A stretch of 64,000 nt of DNA, taken from NCBI RefSeq assembly GCF_005876955.1, contig NZ_SSCL01000004.1:186001-250000 (forward strand), given 5' to 3'. The number at the start of each line of letters is the position of its first letter. The first letter of the stretch is position 1. A model generated the notes under the pieces. The model was not told where the DNA came from. It ran no database searches and saw only the letters and a list, made by a program, of their open reading frames with translations. Below, one piece after another: positions 27,223 through 40,694 of this stretch. The position numbers were made by a program, and so were the translations under genes. The stretch comes from Sinomonas gamaensis (lineage in GTDB: Bacteria; Actinomycetota; Actinomycetes; Actinomycetales; Micrococcaceae).

Positions 27223-28500
27223 TTAACCCGGGGGCGCCGGCTTCTCCTCGGGATGCCCGGCGCGCTGCTGCGCGAGCCGGATCTCGAGGATCGCGTCCAT
27301 GGTCTGCTGGACCTTCTCCGAGGCGCCCGCGTAGCTGAACTGCTCGCGGGCGTCCTTGAGGAGCTCGAGCGCCTCGTCGTTCCGGCCGAGGGCCTTGAGC
27401 GCGCGGCCGTAGAGGAGGGCCACCTCTCCCGCGGTGTGCCGGCCGAGGACCTTCTTCTCCGCGTGGATCTCCTTGAGCTTCTCGATCGCTTCCGGGAGTT
27501 CGCCGTTGAGGTACAGCCACCGGGCGCGGATGAACGCCACCTCGAGCTGCTCGGGCCGGCTCCCTCCCACGATGGAGAGGGCCAGCTCGGCGCGCTCGAT
27601 CGCGGCGAGGGTCTCCGGCTCGACGATGCCGCCGGACAGGCGCACCGCGGCGGAGGCCTTGTTGAACCGGGCCCAGAGCTCGATGTCGTTCGCGGGGGAG
27701 AGGAGCTTCGCTGCCCGCTCGTGGTGCTTGACGCCCTCTTCGTAGTCGGCGCGCATGAACGCGACGTTCCCGATGACCCACTCGACCTCGCCCGAGAGCT
27801 GGCCCATGGACTCCTCGTCCACGAGGGAGCCGAGAATCTTGCAGTAGTCCCATGCCTCGTCCAGGCGGCCGCTCTCTGCAAGGGCGCCGATGAGGGCGCG
27901 GAGCGCTCCGATGTAGATCGTGGAGCCGGCGGGGAGTTGGGCCCCGAGGCGCACTGCTTCGCGAGCATGTTCGACGGCGGTCCCGAGCTGGCCGAGGCCG
28001 TGGCACACGGCAGCGAGCATCTGGTGGGCGCGGACGGCGAGGCCATCTGACTCGGCGATGATGGGGTGTTCGAGGAGATGCTGGACGATCCGCTGGCACT
28101 CGGCGAGCTGGCCCTGCTTCATGAGGCACTCGGCCTGCATGTACGTCATGTTCCACCATGCGCTATTGTTTTTCGCCTCGAGGGCGAACTGCGCGGCCGT
28201 GGCTGCATGGCTCGCGGCTTGGGCGTAGTCGCGCATGTCCCACGCCTGCCGTGCATACAGGCCGGCAAGGACGTATTCGGCGTCATTGGCCGTAACAGGC
28301 TGGCTCCAGGCCTCGAGGGCCTTCGGTGCGAGTTCAAGCCGGCGGGCCAGCTCCTGGATGACTTCGGGAGTCGGCTCCCGACGGCCAGTTTCGAGGAGGG
28401 AGATGTAGCTCGGAGAGTAGAGATCCTTGCCCAATTCCGCCTGGGTCAGCCCACGCTCGAGGCGCTCGGCCCGCAACTTCTCGCCGAATCCGCTCCCCAC
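27223..28500 (-). CDS. XRE-family regulator with TPR array (RRNPP-like peptide-responsive regulator)
   Basis: A 425-residue cytoplasmic regulator. Residues 4-60 are an XRE helix-turn-helix (EKLRAERLERGLTQAELGKD, YISLLETGRREPTPEVIQ). From about residue 70 to 415 there are some seven TPR-like helical hairpins, such as MQAECLMKQGQLAECQRIV, AHQMLAAVCHGLGQLGTAVE and ALLYGRALKALGRNDEALEL. HTH plus TPR at this length is the layout of RRNPP regulators (PlcR, NprR, Rgg, PrgX), which bind re-imported signalling peptides. The GTG at 28500 is chosen because AAGGAGG lies five bases upstream. It is divergent, over 155 bp, from a 74-residue secreted peptide with four tandem repeats, its likely cognate signal precursor. 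The peptide-response assignment is inference; the domain layout is visible. Confidence 0.88.
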   Translation of the reverse strand: MGSGFGEKLRAERLERGLTQAELGKDLYSPSYISLLETGRREPTPEVIQELARRLELAPKALEAWSQPVTANDAEYVLAGLYARQAWDMRDYAQAASHAATAAQFALEAKNNSAWWNMTYMQAECLMKQGQLAECQRIVQHLLEHPIIAESDGLAVRAHQMLAAVCHGLGQLGTAVEHAREAVRLGAQLPAGSTIYIGALRALIGALAESGRLDEAWDYCKILGSLVDEESMGQLSGEVEWVIGNVAFMRADYEEGVKHHERAAKLLSPANDIELWARFNKASAAVRLSGGIVEPETLAAIERAELALSIVGGSRPEQLEVAFIRARWLYLNGELPEAIEKLKEIHAEKKVLGRHTAGEVALLYGRALKALGRNDEALELLKDAREQFSYAGASEKVQQTMDAILEIRLAQQRAGHPEEKPAPPG

Positions 28501-28511
28501 AACTTCCTCCT

Positions 28512-28616
28512 TGACAGAGCACCCCGGTCTGCAACTTGGGGTAAGGCGATACCCTAGCGGCTTGACACCTGCTGTGGATCTTATTTTACTTGGTGTGTCA
28601 ATCACGACAAAGCACG
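28512..28616. promoter_or_regulatory. Regulatory region between the XRE-TPR regulator and the repeat peptide
   Basis: TTGACA at 28562 and TTTACT at 28585, 17 bp apart, form a promoter for the peptide. Direct repeats GACAGAGCAC (28512-28522) and GACAAAGCAC (28606-28616) flank it. TTGACACC (28562-28569) faces a near-complement GGTGTGTCAA (28592-28601), a likely dyad for the regulator. Confidence 0.5.
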
Positions 28617-28655
28617 CTCTGCCCGATTGCACCCGCTACAACATAAGGACATGAC

Positions 28656-28880
28656 ATGCTCAAGAAGTTGACCGCGTCACTCGCCCTCGTCGGCGCTCTG
28701 GCGCTGGGAGGCGTTTCTGTTGCCCCGACGGCCATCGGCAACTGGCCTGACCCCATGAAGACCACGGCGATCGGCAACTGGCCTGACCCGATGAAGTCCA
28801 CGGCGATCGGCAACTGGCCCGACCCGATGAAGGCCACGGCGATCGGCAACTGGCCCGACCCGATGAAGTCGACCTTCTGA
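28656..28880 (+). CDS. Secreted tandem-repeat peptide precursor, candidate pheromone
   Basis: A 74-residue precursor. Residues 1-23 are a Sec signal peptide (MLKKLTASLALVGALALGG, then a cleavage region VSVA). Residues 25-72 are four consecutive 12-residue units with the invariant core TAIGNWPDPMK, where only the last position varies (T, S, A, S), followed by TF. The matching DNA is four 36-bp units (28728-28871) that differ mostly at synonymous sites. Each unit ends in Lys, so trypsin-like cleavage would release up to four near-identical peptides. AAGGA lies six bases before the ATG at 28656. Divergent from the XRE-TPR regulator, it looks like a multi-copy signal precursor for a quorum-sensing circuit. 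I know of no named family. A secreted toxin or cell-wall peptide is the alternative. Confidence 0.9.
   Translation: MLKKLTASLALVGALALGGVSVAPTAIGNWPDPMKTTAIGNWPDPMKSTAIGNWPDPMKATAIGNWPDPMKSTF
28728..28871 (+). repeat. Four 36-bp in-frame tandem repeats
   Basis: Units start at 28728, 28764, 28800 and 28836. Units 2-4 differ by only a few bases; unit 1 differs by third-position changes. The unit length is a multiple of three, so copy number can change without breaking the frame. Confidence 0.95.
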
Positions 28881-28981
28881 TCTGACTTATCCAGGCGAGC
28901 GGACGACTGCCCGAGGCAGGCAGCAACGTTCGACTCTCCGACATGATCCGCGCTAGCGGGTCCAGAGATAGTGCAGGGGAG

Positions 28982-29017
28982 CCCCGCCCGTCACCTCGAC
29001 GGGCGGGGTTCTTCGTT
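28982..29017 (+). terminator. Terminator downstream of the repeat peptide
   Basis: Perfect 11-bp stem CCCCGCCCGTC/GACGGGCGGGG with a 5-nt loop, followed by a T-rich tail TTCTTCGTTTTC. It lies about 100 bp after the peptide stop; that 100 bp shows no other feature. Confidence 0.8.
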
Positions 29018-29152: not shown

Positions 29153-29229
<77 letters not shown>

Positions 29230-29303: not shown

Positions 29304-31154
29304 TCAGACCAGCGACTCGCGCCACGCCCCGTGCAGCGCCGCGAATCGCCCGCCGCCCCGGATGAGCTCCTCGGGGGTGCCGTCCTCGACGATGCGGCCG
29401 CCGTCCATGACGAGGACCCGGTCCGCGATCTCCACCGTGGAGAGCCGATGCGCGATGATGATGGCCGTCCGCTCACGCTGGGCGAGCAGCTTCGCGAGGC
29501 CAGCCTGGACGAGCCGCTCCGACGGGATGTCGAGCGACGAGGTCGCCTCGTCGAGGATGAGCACCGCCGGTGCCGCGAGGAACGCACGGGCGAAGGAGAT
29601 GAGCTGGCGTTGGCCCGCCGAGACCCGCCCACCGCGTTTGTTGACGTCCGTGTCGTAGCCCTCGGGCAGGGCTTCGATGAAGTCGTGCGCGCCCACCGCC
29701 TTGGCGGCGGCCTCGACCTCGGCGCGGGTCGCCGTCGGCCGTCCCAGCGCGATGTTGTCGGCGACCGAGCCGCTGAAGAGGAACGCCTCCTGGGTGACCA
29801 TGACGACGGCTCGCCGCAGGTCGGTCGTCGAGAGGCGCCGGAGGTCCACGCCGTCGAGCATCACCGCGCCTGAGGTGACGTCGTAGAAGCGCGCGATCAG
29901 CTTGGCGAGGGTCGATTTCCCCGCGCCCGTGGCCCCCACCAGCGCGACGGTCTGACCGGCTGGAATGTCGAGGCTGAATTCCGGGAGGACCACCGGGCCC
30001 TCGCCGTAGCCGAACTCAACGCGGTCGAAGCGGACCTCGCCACGCGGGTCCGGGAGCGGCGTGGGATCGCGCGGAGGCACCACTGTGGGGACCTCCTCGA
30101 GCAGTCCCGAGACCTTCTCGAGCGCCGCCTGTGCGCTCTGGAAGGAGTTGTAGAACATGGCCATGTCCGCGACCGGCTGGTAGAAGCGCTTCACCGAGAG
30201 GACCAGCGCGAGGAGCACGCCGACGGCGAGCGTTCCGTCGAGCACGCGGAGGCCCGCGACGAGGAGCACGACGGCGACCGTCACGTTCCCGATGAGCACG
30301 AGCCCGGGCTGCAGGATGCCGTTGAGCTGGATCGAGCGGGCGGTCACCTTGCGATAGTCCTCGGCGAGGCCGCCGAAGACCTCGTTGTTCTCGGCCTCCT
30401 TGCGGAAGGCCTTCACCGCGCGGATGCCCGTCATCGTTTCGACGAAGTGCACGATCAGGCGCGCCGAGGCGACCCGGGAGGCCCGGTAGGCCACCTGAGA
30501 GCGCTTCTGGTACCAGCGCGCGAGGGCGAACATCGGCGCCGCCGCCGTGAGCATGATGAAGCCGGACGGCCAGTCGAGCAGGAACACCGTGGCCGCAGTG
30601 AACAGCATGAACAGAATGCCGGAGACGAGCGAGCTGACGCCTGAATCGAGCAGCTCGCGCAGGGCCTCGAGATCCGAGGTCTGGCGGCTGATGATGCGGC
30701 CCGAGGTGTAGTGCTCGTGGAAGTCCAGGCTCAGGCGCTGCGTGTGCCGGAAGACGCGGACGCGGAGGTCGAGCAGCATCGCCTGGCTGAGTTTCGCCGT
30801 GGAGGTCACGTAGCCCGCGGTGAGCCCCGCCGTCGTGAGCGCGGCCGCGAGGTAGGCGGCGCCGGTGAGCCAGACGAGCAACGAGTCGCCGTGCAGGAGT
30901 GCGGGCAGGGCGCGGTCCACGCCGAGGGCGATGATCGCGGGGCCGGCGGCTTTCGTCGCCTGCGACACGACGACCATCCCCAGCGTCGCCCAGAAGCGCA
31001 CCCGCACCGGACGGATGAGCTCGGCGAGGAGTCGGAGGGACCGGCGGCGGACCGCGCGCGATTCCTCGCGGGAGAGGACGACGTCGTCCTCGGCGTGCGC
31101 TTCCGGCGCGCCCGGGCGGGAGGTGCCTCTCGCCGTGCGGGGAGCGTGGCTCAT
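29304..31154 (-). CDS. ABC exporter half-transporter, canonical ATPase half
   Basis: A 616-residue type IV exporter: a six-helix membrane domain (about residues 40-345) followed by an ATPase domain. Walker A is GATGAGKST, and the Walker B region [11 protein letters not shown] carries the catalytic Glu. The signature motif is the variant VSAGQ and the switch His is in [10 protein letters not shown]. The start ATG at 31154 overlaps the upstream half-transporter stop (ATGA), so the two are made together. With the neighbour it forms a heterodimer in which this subunit contributes the complete Walker site. Substrate unknown; lipids or drugs are usual for this TmrAB-like class. Confidence 0.92.
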
Positions 31155-33019
31155 CGGGCCTCCTCCAGATCGTCCAGATCGCCGGCTTCGAGCTCCGAGT
31201 CGAGGTCCCGCGGGGCGGTGTCGAGGCTCGCGATGACGTACCGGTAGTGCGAGTTCCGTGCGAGGAGCTCGGAATGGGTGCCCACGTCATCGATGACGCC
31301 GTCCCGCAGGAGCGCCACGCGGTCGGCGAGGGCGACGGTGGACGGGCGGTGGGCGACGATGAGGGTCGTCGTCTCGGCGAGCACCTGTCGAAGGCGCGCC
31401 TCGACGCGTTCCTCGGTGGCGACGTCGAGCGCGGAGAGGGGATCGTCGAGGACCAGCACGGCAGGCTTGGCCGCGATCGCGCGGGCGAGCGCAATGCGCT
31501 GCCGCTGCCCGCCGGACAGGCTCAGCCCCTCCTCGCCGATCCGGGTGTCGACCCCCTCGGGGAGCGAATACGCGAAGTGGGCCTGCGCGACGTCGAGGGC
31601 CTCCTGGAGGAGGGCCTCCGCCTCTGGCCCCTCCCGGGTCGAGGCGCCGAGCAGGACGTTGTCCCGAACAGACGTCGAGAAGAGCGTGGTGTCCTCGAAC
31701 GCGACGGAGACGATCCGGCGGAGGTCCGAGAGCGCGAGGCTGCGGACGTCCACACCGTCGATCTCGACCGAGCCGCCGCTCACCTCGTACAGCCGGGGCA
31801 CGAGCTGCAGGAGGGTGCTCTTCCCCGATCCCGTCAGGCCTACGAGGGCCATGGTCTCGCCGGGGACGAGCTCAAGGTCGATGTCGCGGAGAACCGGGCG
31901 GGCGCCGTCGTCCTTGCGCTCGGCCGATCGCGAGCGGGAGGGCTCGTACGCGAAGCGGACACTGCGGAAGGCGAGCGCCCCGCGGGGCCGGGCGAGACGC
32001 CGCGGCTCCTTGGGGTCCGCGATCGAGACGGGCTCGTCCCGGACCTCGTAGTGGCGGTCGATTGCGGTCTTCGCCGTGAGGGCCATGCCCACGAGGGCGC
32101 CCGACATCTCGACGGGGTTCGCGACCGCGGCCGCCGTGGCGAAGAATGCGGCGAGGGCGCCCACCGTGATCTGGTTGGTCGCGGCGAGCCACAGCCCCAC
32201 CATGAGCCCGGTCCCCAGGGCGAGCTCCGGCAGCAGGGTCACGACCATGCTGAACACCGCGAGATGACGGGCCTTCGTGACCTCCGTGGCGCGGAGCTCC
32301 TCGGCCTGCAGCGTGAAGTTCTCGAGCGCCTCGCGGCTCCGTCCGAACGCCTTGAGCACCCGGATGCCGTGCACAGACTCCTCGACGGCCGTCGCGAGGT
32401 CTCCGGCCTGGTCCTGACTTCGGCGGGAAGCGGCTACGAACTGGCGGCGGAAGCGGAAGCTGTAGATGCTGATCGGAACAGCCGCGGCAAGGAAGATGAG
32501 CGCAAGCTGCCACGAAATGGTGAACAGCATGGCGATGCCCACGATCACGGTGGTGATCGAGATGACCAGATAGATCGCCCCGAACGCGAGCCAGCGGCGC
32601 AGCATGTTGAGGTCGGTCATGGCACGTGAGAGCAGCTGGCCCGAGCCCCAGCGGTCGTGGAACGAGACCGGCAGGAGCTGCAGGTGCCGGTACAGCGTGA
32701 CGCGCAGCGACGCCTCGACATTCGTTGCGGGGTCCAGCACGAAGATGCGGCGCAGGAAGGTCAGCAGCGCTTCGAGCACGCCCATGATGAGGACGACGAC
32801 GGCGGCGCTCACGACGGCGGACGGCGTGGCACCGGCGCGCAGCAGCGTGTCGATGATGGCGCGGAACACCTGCGGCACGAGGACCGCGAGAACCGAGGCG
32901 GAAAGCCCCACGCCCAGGCCCGCGACGAGCCGCGGAATGATGCGCCGCGCCTCGGGCGCGAGCCGTGCCAGACTGCGGCGGAAGGGGATCTGCTCTCGGG
33001 CGGGGGCCTTGACGGGCAT
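31151..33019 (-). CDS. ABC exporter half-transporter, degenerate ATPase half
   Basis: A 622-residue partner of the adjacent exporter gene. The membrane domain lies at about 25-330 and the ATPase domain follows. Walker A is LTGSGKST and the signature [14 protein letters not shown] is canonical. The Walker B region reads [11 protein letters not shown], with Asp where the catalytic Glu should be. This asymmetry, a degenerate site here and a canonical LSGGQ for the partner, is the mark of heterodimeric exporters such as TmrAB and BmrCD. The ATG at 33019 has GGAGG about 12 bases upstream. Gap 33020-33131 shows nothing. Confidence 0.92.
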
Positions 33020-38971: not shown

Positions 38972-40156
38972 ATGTTGGACACGACCTTCCTGGACCTCGT
39001 GCTCGTGGTGGTCCTGATCGGCTACCTCATCTACGGGGTCCGGGCCGGTTTCCTCGTGAGCCTGGGCGGCATCGTGGGCTTCCTCGTCGGCGGCGCCGCA
39101 GCGTTCTTCGCCGTGCCCCTTGTGAGCCAGTGGCTCTCCGACAGCGGGTGGCGCGCGGCCGCCGTCGTGATCACCGCGATCCTCCTGATGGCCGCCGGCA
39201 ACGCGGTGGGCACGGGGCTCGGGCGGCGGCTGAGGGGCAAGATCCGGTGGAAGCCGCTCGCCATCGTGGACAAGGTGCTGGGCGGTGTCGCGAACGTCGC
39301 GGTCGCGGCGATCGTGATGTCGATGCTCTCCTTCACGGTGTCCAGCGTCGGGGCGCCCGTGCTTTCGCAGCAGCTCTCGTCGTCGCGGGTCATCACGGCG
39401 ATCGACGGTCTGACGCCGGATCCGGTCAAGGCGGAGGCAGCGCAGATCAGGGCCTTCGTCCTCGGCGACACCCTTCCGCGGATCATCGAGGGGATCGGGC
39501 CGCTCCAGCCGGTGCCGATTCCGGATGAGAACACGGACGCGCCTGCGCTGCGCACTGCGGCCCGCTCGATCGTCCGGATCACGGGCACGGCGTTCCAGTG
39601 CGGTCAGAATCAGACCGGCAGCGGATTCGTCGTCGCGCCCGGGCGTGTCATGACGAATGCCCACGTCGTGGCGGGCGTCCAGGAGCCGGTCGTCGAGCTA
39701 CCCGGTGGCGGTGCGCGCACCGCGCACGTGGTCTACTTCGACAGCGTGCACGACCTTGCCGTCCTCGCCGTCGACAGTCTGTCGCTGTCCCCGCTCCCGC
39801 TTGCCGGGAACAGTGCGCCCGGCACGTCCGCGGCCTTCGGGGGCTATCCGCTCGGCGGTCCTTTCCAGATGCGTCCCGCGGCGATCCAGGGCACGACGAC
39901 GGTGCTCGCCCCGGATATCTACGGCGCCAATGCCGTGCCCAAGATGGTCTATCAGATTGCCGGCAACGTGCAGCAGGGCAATTCGGGTGGGCCCCTGCTC
40001 ACACTCGACGGTTCAGTGACGGGCGTCGTGTTCGCGAAGTCGGACAACGCCCCGAACGTGGGCTACGCGATCACCATGGGCGAGGTCAAGCCCGTGGCGG
40101 ACCAGGCGCCGGGCCTCTCGCAGCCGGTGCAGCCGGGCCAATGCACCCGGAAGTAG
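38972..40156 (+). CDS. MarP-like membrane serine protease
   Basis: A 394-residue protein with four N-terminal membrane helices of the CvpA type (residues 8-125), a linker, and a periplasmic chymotrypsin-fold protease. The triad is His231 (TNAHVVAG), Asp261 (SVHDLAV) and Ser338 (GNSGGP). Cys210 and Cys391 bracket the protease domain as in MarP, where a disulfide activates the enzyme. In mycobacteria MarP is needed for acid resistance and processes a peptidoglycan hydrolase. The ATG at 38972 follows TAGACT by seven bases with no ribosome binding site, so the message looks leaderless; upstream frame extension is rejected. Confidence 0.93.
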   Translation: MLDTTFLDLVLVVVLIGYLIYGVRAGFLVSLGGIVGFLVGGAAAFFAVPLVSQWLSDSGWRAAAVVITAILLMAAGNAVGTGLGRRLRGKIRWKPLAIVDKVLGGVANVAVAAIVMSMLSFTVSSVGAPVLSQQLSSSRVITAIDGLTPDPVKAEAAQIRAFVLGDTLPRIIEGIGPLQPVPIPDENTDAPALRTAARSIVRITGTAFQCGQNQTGSGFVVAPGRVMTNAHVVAGVQEPVVELPGGGARTAHVVYFDSVHDLAVLAVDSLSLSPLPLAGNSAPGTSAAFGGYPLGGPFQMRPAAIQGTTTVLAPDIYGANAVPKMVYQIAGNVQQGNSGGPLLTLDGSVTGVVFAKSDNAPNVGYAITMGEVKPVADQAPGLSQPVQPGQCTRK

Positions 40157-40196
40157 CTGCAGCAAGAGACAAGTAGCTACAGCACCCCGGAAGTGG

Positions 40197-40694
40197 CTAT
40201 AGCGCCCGTTCGCGCGTGAGTTCTGCGAGGTATTCGATCGCGAACCGGTAGCCGAGCGTGCCTGCGCCAGCGATCACGGCCCGGCACACGTCGCTCAGGT
40301 ACGAGTGGTGCCGGAACGGTTCGCGGGCGTGGACGTTCGTGATGTGGACCTCGACGGCGGGGAGGCTGACGGCCGAGATGGCGTCGCGGAGCGCGACCGA
40401 CGTGTGCGTGTAGGCGGCTGCGTTGATGACGATGCCGATCGCAGAGTCGCGGGCCCCGTGGATCGCGTCGACGAGGGCGCCCTCGTGGTTCGACTGGACG
40501 AAGTCGCATTCGAGGCCGTGGGCGTCCGCGGCGCCGGCGCACAGCCGCTCGATGTCACCGAGCGTCGCCGTCCCGTACTTCTCCGGCTCGCGCGTCCCCA
40601 GCAGATTGAGGTTGGGCCCGTTGACCACGAGAATGCTCGTGCGGGCGGCCGGTGCGGAGGGCGCAGGAGACGACGACGGTGTGGGCTCGGTCAT
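40197..40694 (-). CDS. aroQ: Type II 3-dehydroquinate dehydratase
   Basis: A 165-residue type II dehydroquinase of the shikimate pathway, which forms a dodecamer. Motifs are [17 protein letters not shown] with the catalytic Tyr, [30 protein letters not shown] and [18 protein letters not shown]. The first 20 residues are a Ser/Pro/Ala-rich extension. The ATG at 40694 has TAGGAT seven bases upstream, a leaderless arrangement; the longer upstream frame is rejected. It stands alone here without other aro genes. Confidence 0.95.

Follow-up and report, generated by a model that had tools for sequence, protein, structure and literature searches.

The 64,000-nucleotide stretch of the Sinomonas gamaensis genome analysed here (assembly GCF_005876955.1, contig NZ_SSCL01000004.1, positions 186,001 to 250,000; hereafter the window) carries two divergent genes, one for a 425-residue regulator with an XRE-type helix-turn-helix (HTH) domain followed by tetratricopeptide repeats (TPRs), the other for a 74-residue peptide with a predicted Sec-type export region and four tandem repeats. 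Based on our results, we consider it likely, with a probability of about 75%, that this pair belongs to an RRNPP-like receptor-pheromone family of Actinomycetota, that is, a two-gene intracellular peptide signalling system like those of Bacillota, in which export, cleavage, import and binding of the peptide are predicted steps. Regulator and peptide occur together in each of the best 80 of 317 regulator relatives. Loci and genomes are cited below by our own labels (L and G numbers, respectively).

Results

The pairing of regulator and peptide is conserved. A search of GTDB genomes with a regulator alignment returned 317 relatives, and the counts given here refer to the best 80 of these 317, which come from Sinomonas, Arthrobacter, Paenarthrobacter and Pseudarthrobacter. 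In all 80, the 900 bp upstream hold an open reading frame (ORF) for a peptide that bears the core motif. The pair is also present in the laboratory strain Paenarthrobacter aurescens TC1 (L056). Using a rule for Sec-like ORFs (22-180 residues, a basic residue near the start, a hydrophobic stretch and no early acidic residue), we found such an ORF containing Trp-Pro (WP) within 600 bp upstream in 80/80 regulator loci; in 69 of them WP falls among the five C-terminal residues. For comparison, 1200-bp control windows were taken from the regions flanking these loci; they are syntenic and hence mutually non-independent, and their length is twice that of the stretch examined at the 80 loci and the same as that used at the 30 HTH-less loci described below. 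A Sec-like WP ORF was present in 22 of 552 such windows, and one with WP among its five C-terminal residues in 1 of 552. An earlier note, made from the letters of this DNA, had proposed an actinobacterial RRNPP-like regulator-peptide pair and suggested checking whether XRE-TPR genes co-occur with secreted ORFs of the GNWPDP type. A WP ORF is present at 80/80 HTH loci and at 30/30 loci of HTH-less paralogs, and the proposal is supported by this conserved pairing and by the control count of 1/552. Four features described below go beyond that note: the position of the unit at the very C-terminus in most relatives, the HTH-less branch, the inverted repeat and the dispersed copies of the signal.

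Starting from the peptide, a search of 98 genomes (expect value, E, up to 0.01) gave matches in 30, including 14/14 congeners, and 27 of the 30 peptide-match loci adjoin a regulator relative (35-98% identity outside the S. gamaensis genome itself); some of these genomes also belong to the regulator-search set. Three weak peptide matches (L028-L030) were excluded as family members because no regulator adjoins them. The surroundings of the pair are largely shared too: purD and purC are syntenic around it in 79/80 loci each, and a pair of ATP-binding cassette (ABC) exporter genes in 78/80 each. The same block recurs at L211, L212, L214 and L215 and in part at L213, and at L216 and L217 the pair is located at a different site, near a gene that we take to be dnaK-like. 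In the window, the ABC-exporter pair lies beyond the peptide gene (29304-33019), perhaps through synteny alone or perhaps as a peptide transporter.

From 81 precursors (those of the 80 relatives and of the window), 224 units were collected by the pattern xG(N/D/I)WP, which presupposes G, W and the first P and leaves degenerate units, for example GNSPDS in L034, uncounted. The D and P that follow this pattern are invariant in 224/224 units, D being encoded by GAC (115) or GAT (109) and P by CCG (95), CCC (89), CCT (31) or CCA (9). N is found in 221 units; the first residue is I in 188, V in 35 and T in 1, and the last is M in 213, A in 6 and V in 5. The peptide core is evidently under selection. 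In the window, the 12-residue units share TAIGNWPDPMK and end in T, S, A and S, respectively, and within the 33-nt (11-residue) core they differ at third codon positions alone, every change being synonymous. The number of units per precursor (n = 81) is one in 5, two in 38, three in 14, four in 20, five in 3 and six in 1, and a precursor from a more distant genus (L020) has 8 copies. In 69 of the 81, the precursor terminates exactly at a unit (IGNWPDPM in 46, VGNWPDPM in 14, IGNWPDPV in 5, IGNWPDPA in 3 and TGIWPDPM in 1), while that of the window and 11 others carry extra C-terminal residues. According to the accessible parts of PMC11343458, a pheromone at the precursor C-terminus is the usual RRNPP layout; the mature signal is therefore probably close to (I/V)GNWPDPM, or shorter.

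Between the two genes lies an inverted repeat, TTGACA-N28-TGTCAA, which is exact in 80 of the 81 loci and has one mismatch in L038; no other spacing among 10-59 was seen. At 18 further HTH loci the repeat is exact in nine (L014-L018, L021, L022, L024, L025; L014, L016 and L018 are from genomes already among the 81) and has two mismatches in two (L023, L026); in the remaining seven (L019, L020, L136, L137, L138, L145, L146) it is unrecognisable, the best sites having 3 to 5 mismatches. Allowing up to 3 mismatches, the full motif occurs at exactly one site per genome in 14/14 whole genomes. It is exact or one mismatch away in none of the 30 HTH-less loci, where the best site differs from it at two positions in 2 loci and at no fewer than three in 28, and at a further HTH-less locus (L027) the best site has four mismatches. 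Its absence from HTH-less loci is what would be expected if the HTH binds the repeat, and we infer that the regulator may do so through this domain. Half-sites alone, with one mismatch, gave 43 sites beyond the pairs' own in 19 genomes as compared to 16 with the reversed pattern, and G424 alone has 8 extra half-site pairs against 0 in the reversed control. By eye, the inner ATTTTAC is present in none of the 43 extra half-site pairs. This excess may stem from composition, as TTGACA resembles a promoter hexamer, or may include weak real targets.

An order-wide search (regulator match at E up to 1e-30 in 26/396 genomes) exposed relatives that match the TPR part alone, and a profile of six such HTH-less relatives matched 141/295 genomes in a family-wide search, HTH receptors included. 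We fetched 30 HTH-less loci (L165-L194), of which six were profile seeds whose peptide was already known when they were picked. A Pfam HTH was found in 0/30 of these receptors vs 54/54 of the HTH type, and the receptors of L014, L131 and L133 do carry one. The 26 HTH-less rows of a tree, which include overlapping loci, group together as a single clade (support 100/98). An exported-type peptide with WP adjoins the receptor in all 30, seeds included; in 28, WP falls within the final five residues. These cores vary at their third and last positions (VNNWPY, VGSWPF, VGYWPF, IGWWPN, VGWWPH). At seven (L200, L203, L204, L205, L206, L208, L209) of 11 loci read more widely, Pfam identifies a GGDEF-EAL protein encoded downstream in the same orientation, either as the adjacent gene or one gene further on; six of these seven neighbours also match HAMP, two of the six below its cut-off. 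At L201 and L202 the neighbour was judged GGDEF-EAL solely by its similar start, and at L207 and L210 Pfam assigns the neighbouring proteins to family-2 glycosyltransferases and CBM5/12. This position beside GGDEF-EAL suggests that the peptide signal feeds into cyclic di-GMP (c-di-GMP) turnover. In G022 (Arthrobacter ipis, name inferred) both channels are present, IGNWPDPM with an HTH receptor and VGWWPH with an HTH-less one. A further TPR-only pair (L027/L218) has a peptide with the C-terminus VGNWPNVGNWPN; L218 lies near family-2 glycosyltransferase and CBM5/12 proteins, judged by sequence only.

In a class-wide search the regulator matched (E up to 1e-20) in 10/394 genomes, four of them outside the order. 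Pairs in other families have GGSWPT repeats (L136, L137), SDTWPA (L138), DIGWPTP/DIGWPVP (L145) or ALNWPKCC (L146), and the distant exported-type WP peptides of L137, L138, L145 and L146 may mean that the family is much wider. No peptide was recognised beside the receptors at L129, L133, L139, L144, L147, L148, L149 and L150, L147 having a small exported-type peptide without WP and L149 nothing beyond an ORF in which WP lies close to the N-terminus; nor was an adjacent one recognised for extra receptor paralogs in other Sinomonas genomes (L227-L229), and at L226 our script recognised no receptor ORF. On the minus strand of L131, near 1327-1383, a candidate leaderless 19-residue peptide ending VGDWPD stands beside the HTH receptor.

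Copies of the core also lie away from the pair. With the degenerate pattern G(N/D)WPDP, 58 genomes yielded 21 loci outside the main pair, 20 of which were read (one in G012 was left out). Of 15 dispersed copies in Sinomonas and A. ipis genomes, 13 terminate exactly one residue past GNWPDP (among them L275, which lies in a stretch with unread bases), as compared to 0/5 in other genomes. The two exceptions are L249, a background reading, and L231 (G022:C12, near 297543-297658), an orphan four-copy IGNWPDPM ORF without obvious export signal near a gene that is presumably of the PRC-barrel type. The S. gamaensis genome itself has a leaderless 11-residue ORF, MSSIGNWPDPM (G000:C31:261804-261839, equal to L277:5805-5840), and a 25-residue ORF ending AVGNWPDPM (G000:C7:35195-35272, minus strand; L278), and similar small ORFs with GNWPDPM before the stop are present in other Sinomonas genomes. 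By eye, the copies at L232, L270 and L272 look Sec-exported, and 7 of 11 dispersed loci (L277, L278, L279, L280, L281, L283, L285) have, 51-181 nt upstream of the core, the stop of a same-strand ORF that is longer than 150 residues and has a hydrophobic stretch close to its C-terminus. In a set of 101 genomes from the genus to which G022 belongs, 95 have the GNWPDP-x-stop pattern and none has its reversed control; 11 have more than one site, and one site in G1038 reads TGG rather than a stop. The exact C-terminus of the dispersed copies lends support to the mature end that we propose for the signal. About 6 kb from one dispersed copy, a SAM-IV riboswitch (Rfam RF00634) was found at L278:66-181.

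Discussion

On our best reading of these data, the pair is a counterpart of RRNPP signalling outside Bacillota, set apart by its peptide core, by the conserved repeat between the two genes and by a branch of receptors that lack the HTH; we assign it neither to RNPP_C nor to any named RRNPP subfamily. In the mechanism that we propose, the precursor would be exported through its N-terminal signal, and extracellular or cell-wall proteases would free short peptides, at most four from each precursor in the window, whose active core is (I/V)GNWPDP with one further residue. An oligopeptide permease, for which the genome encodes five SBP_bac_5 proteins as possible partners, would bring these peptides back into the cell, where they would occupy the groove formed by the TPRs of the divergently encoded regulator. 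This protein would sit on TTGACA-N28-TGTCAA, and peptide binding would alter transcription of the pair, giving an autoregulatory loop. The predicted part of this model comprises export, cleavage, import, the binding of peptide and of DNA, the sign of the regulation, the dependence on a quorum and the downstream targets.

The leaderless GNWPDP sources are at odds with a purely exported signal. They give some substance to another explanation, in which the peptide is indeed the ligand of the regulator and the circuit is private, either an export-import timer or a cytosolic ligand that reports the expression of particular operons, with no population signal. MSSIGNWPDPM, which shares the octapeptide end and has no Sec signal, and the ORFs with a C-terminal hydrophobic stretch upstream of the core in 7/11 dispersed loci fit such a circuit, which we nevertheless regard as unlikely: the adjacent precursor is Sec-like by the hydropathy rule in 80/80 relatives, and tandem copies and paralogous exported peptides have been retained. 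It is still less probable that the exported repeats serve as a bacteriocin-like or wall-associated effector or surface peptide that the regulator controls at the level of transcription but does not bind. Small exported repeat peptides can be effectors and a regulator divergent from its target is a common layout, but the conserved part is a core of 6-8 residues, C-terminal in 69/81, HTH-less receptors retain a core-bearing peptide despite the loss of the DNA-binding domain, and the differing neighbourhoods listed, compared by unannotated ORF starts, have no common third gene beside the pair. Finally, functionally unlinked genes could have been inherited together by chance with the purD-purC block, as its synteny with the pair and the ABC exporters in 78-79 of 80 loci might suggest; this we hold to be very improbable, because the pairing is kept at a different site in L216 and L217, at other sites in the HTH-less clade and in other families, and because control windows gave 1/552.

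Carriage by phages, as in arbitrium-like systems, is not supported: phage records gave 2 matches that cover the HTH part only, and viral contigs 3 short HTH matches. Among plasmids, 44 records match the regulator, 40 of them from Streptomyces; the best 20 of these 44 have 26-29% identity, and 13 of the 20 cover at least 80% of the regulator. One plasmid match that was inspected has a neighbouring 45-residue ORF without the WP core, and an HTH-less receptor as query gave no plasmid match.

Taking the HTH receptors, the HTH-less branch and the dispersed copies together, a broader picture can be drawn, which we offer tentatively and with less than even confidence. Actinomycetota would own a large family of W-P hexapeptide pheromones, with one receptor branch that binds DNA and another that lost its HTH and became wired to c-di-GMP (GGDEF-EAL) and exopolysaccharide genes; leaderless ORFs beside surface-protein genes would also encode the octapeptide, so that exported and cytosolic sources converge on one receptor.

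PlcR-PapR, NprR-NprX, Rgg-SHP, ComR-ComS and PrgX-cCF10 are the RRNPP systems of Bacillota whose receptors have an HTH. They share with the pair described here a receptor made of HTH and TPRs and an adjacent small precursor; their mature peptide is short and usually C-terminal, as is predicted for most precursors of the present family. Unlike them, the Sinomonas-type pair occurs in Actinomycetota, has the core GNWPDP and no RNPP_C match, has precursors with up to 8 tandem copies and has an intergenic inverted repeat with a fixed spacing of 28 bp. The likeness to Rap-Phr lies in a TPR receptor with a cognate exported precursor and in pheromone copies both internal and C-terminal, and the HTH-less branch is without a DNA-binding domain, as is Rap. 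It differs from Rap-Phr in that the HTH-less receptors are one clade among actinobacterial HTH receptors, in the GGDEF-EAL neighbour in 7/11 loci and in copy numbers up to eight. Tandem pheromone copies are already known from Bacillus phages, and Phr-3T and Phr-105 have duplicated pheromones (PMC11343458). Within the same phylum, gamma-butyrolactone signalling of Streptomyces and relatives also serves cell-to-cell communication; it differs in its small-molecule signal, its TetR-family receptors and the lack of a genetically encoded peptide, as far as the available text of PMC4748050 goes.

In the portions of the literature at hand, import of RRNPP peptides by oligopeptide permease and their binding by a cytosolic receptor are described in PMC13220807, and neither there nor in PMC12700828 does an actinobacterial RRNPP system appear. 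From the corresponding portions, the survey in PMC10075063 covers Firmicutes and viruses only and names small molecules as typical actinobacterial signals, PMC9765709 deals with Firmicutes, and one review adds cyclic or modified peptides as actinobacterial signals. For Arthrobacter, the part of PMC4748050 at hand has only LuxR-type, REC and AAA proteins, none of them the present pair, and the TPR entries of other genera in its table appear to be drawn from a survey of LuxR proteins. In the full-text literature searched, which leaves subscription papers and preprints largely outside, no description of GNWPDP or of an RRNPP-type pair in Micrococcaceae or Arthrobacter was found; this agrees with the earlier note, whose author knew of no described RRNPP system with this repeat peptide.

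As RRNPP-type signalling is regarded as a Bacillota trait in the literature, so far as these excerpts represent it, a receptor-pheromone family that is widespread among Arthrobacter-like bacteria of the soil would bring a further phylum into linear-peptide quorum sensing. Testable peptides are obtained here from sequence alone, along with a natural series of core variants for specificity studies, and the HTH-less branch suggests a link from a peptide signal to c-di-GMP.

Features of the window

The features are collected in Table 1. The ORF of the regulator runs in full over 27223-28632 on the minus strand, and its start is likely the GTG at 28500, preferred because relatives begin with MGSGFGEK or MGNGFGEK at that point. 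Pfam matches to HTH_3 (E 9e-12) and TPR_12 (E 1.5e-10) agree with the earlier description of a 425-residue XRE-HTH/TPR protein, TPR_12, TPR_14 and TPR_19 all exceeding their cut-offs. The "about seven" TPR hairpins of that description need correcting: in the AlphaFold model, where one of the helices is just 5 residues long, the TPR region is built of eight or nine. We conclude nothing from the modelled HTH fold, because the predicted local distance difference test (pLDDT) is mostly below 50 at residues 1-66. The closest named regulator is that of S. susongensis (98% identity). According to the available parts of PMC10075063, RRNPP systems are recognised by a receptor of 250-500 residues with TPRs and an adjacent gene for a small, exported propeptide, and the length of the regulator falls inside this range. 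RNPP_C (PF18768) is absent among the Pfam matches of the regulator at E up to 1, and it had no match over the proteins of the S. gamaensis genome, a weak test as the control matched 1/14 genomes, none over the cut-off. PADLOC matches of the regulator (HTH_VI, capH, RmrA) were set aside, as they cover the HTH, one of them extending to residue 105.

The divergent layout and the gap of 155 bp (28501-28655) were found as previously described, and the 74-residue peptide with four tandem 12-residue TAIGNWPDPMK units was confirmed by Tandem Repeats Finder (28728-28868, 36-bp period, 3.9 copies, score 240). The N-terminus of the precursor has lysine and then a hydrophobic stretch, and its export signal was judged by eye. 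No known family matched the peptide over the curated cut-offs in Pfam or NCBIfam, and none in PADLOC; its single PHROG match (E 0.03) is a family entry of unknown function.

Table 1. Position, strand and basis of the features of the regulator-peptide pair in the window
Feature	Position	Strand	Basis or remark
XRE-HTH and TPR regulator, predicted peptide receptor	27223..28500 (stop codon included)	-	425 aa; ORF, Pfam, AlphaFold model
TPR superhelix of regulator (about residues 71-414, 18 helices)	27259..28290	-	AlphaFold pLDDT block means 77-97; fold search
HTH domain of regulator (about residues 5-64)	28309..28488	-	Pfam HTH_3 residues 9-57, HTH_31 residues 5-64
Conserved inverted repeat TTGACA-N28-TGTCAA, inner ATTTTAC; predicted operator overlapping divergent promoters	28562..28601	.	
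Likely ribosome-binding site AAGGA	28645..28649	+	read from sequence
Pheromone precursor (predicted)	28656..28880	+	74 aa; ORF and tandem repeat analysis
Sec-type export region MLKKLTASLALVGALALGGVSVAP (predicted)	28656..28727	+	read from sequence
Repeat unit 1, TAIGNWPDPMKT	28728..28763	+	Tandem Repeats Finder and codon comparison
Repeat unit 2, TAIGNWPDPMKS	28764..28799	+	Tandem Repeats Finder and codon comparison
Repeat unit 3, TAIGNWPDPMKA	28800..28835	+	Tandem Repeats Finder and codon comparison
Repeat unit 4, TAIGNWPDPMKS	28836..28871	+	Tandem Repeats Finder and codon comparison
Terminator-like hairpin, 17-pair stem and T-rich tail, downstream of peptide gene	28976..29014	+	

Elsewhere in the window, a tRNA-Pro gene lies at 29153-29229, and a short 20-bp tandem repeat of weak score at 40146-40207.

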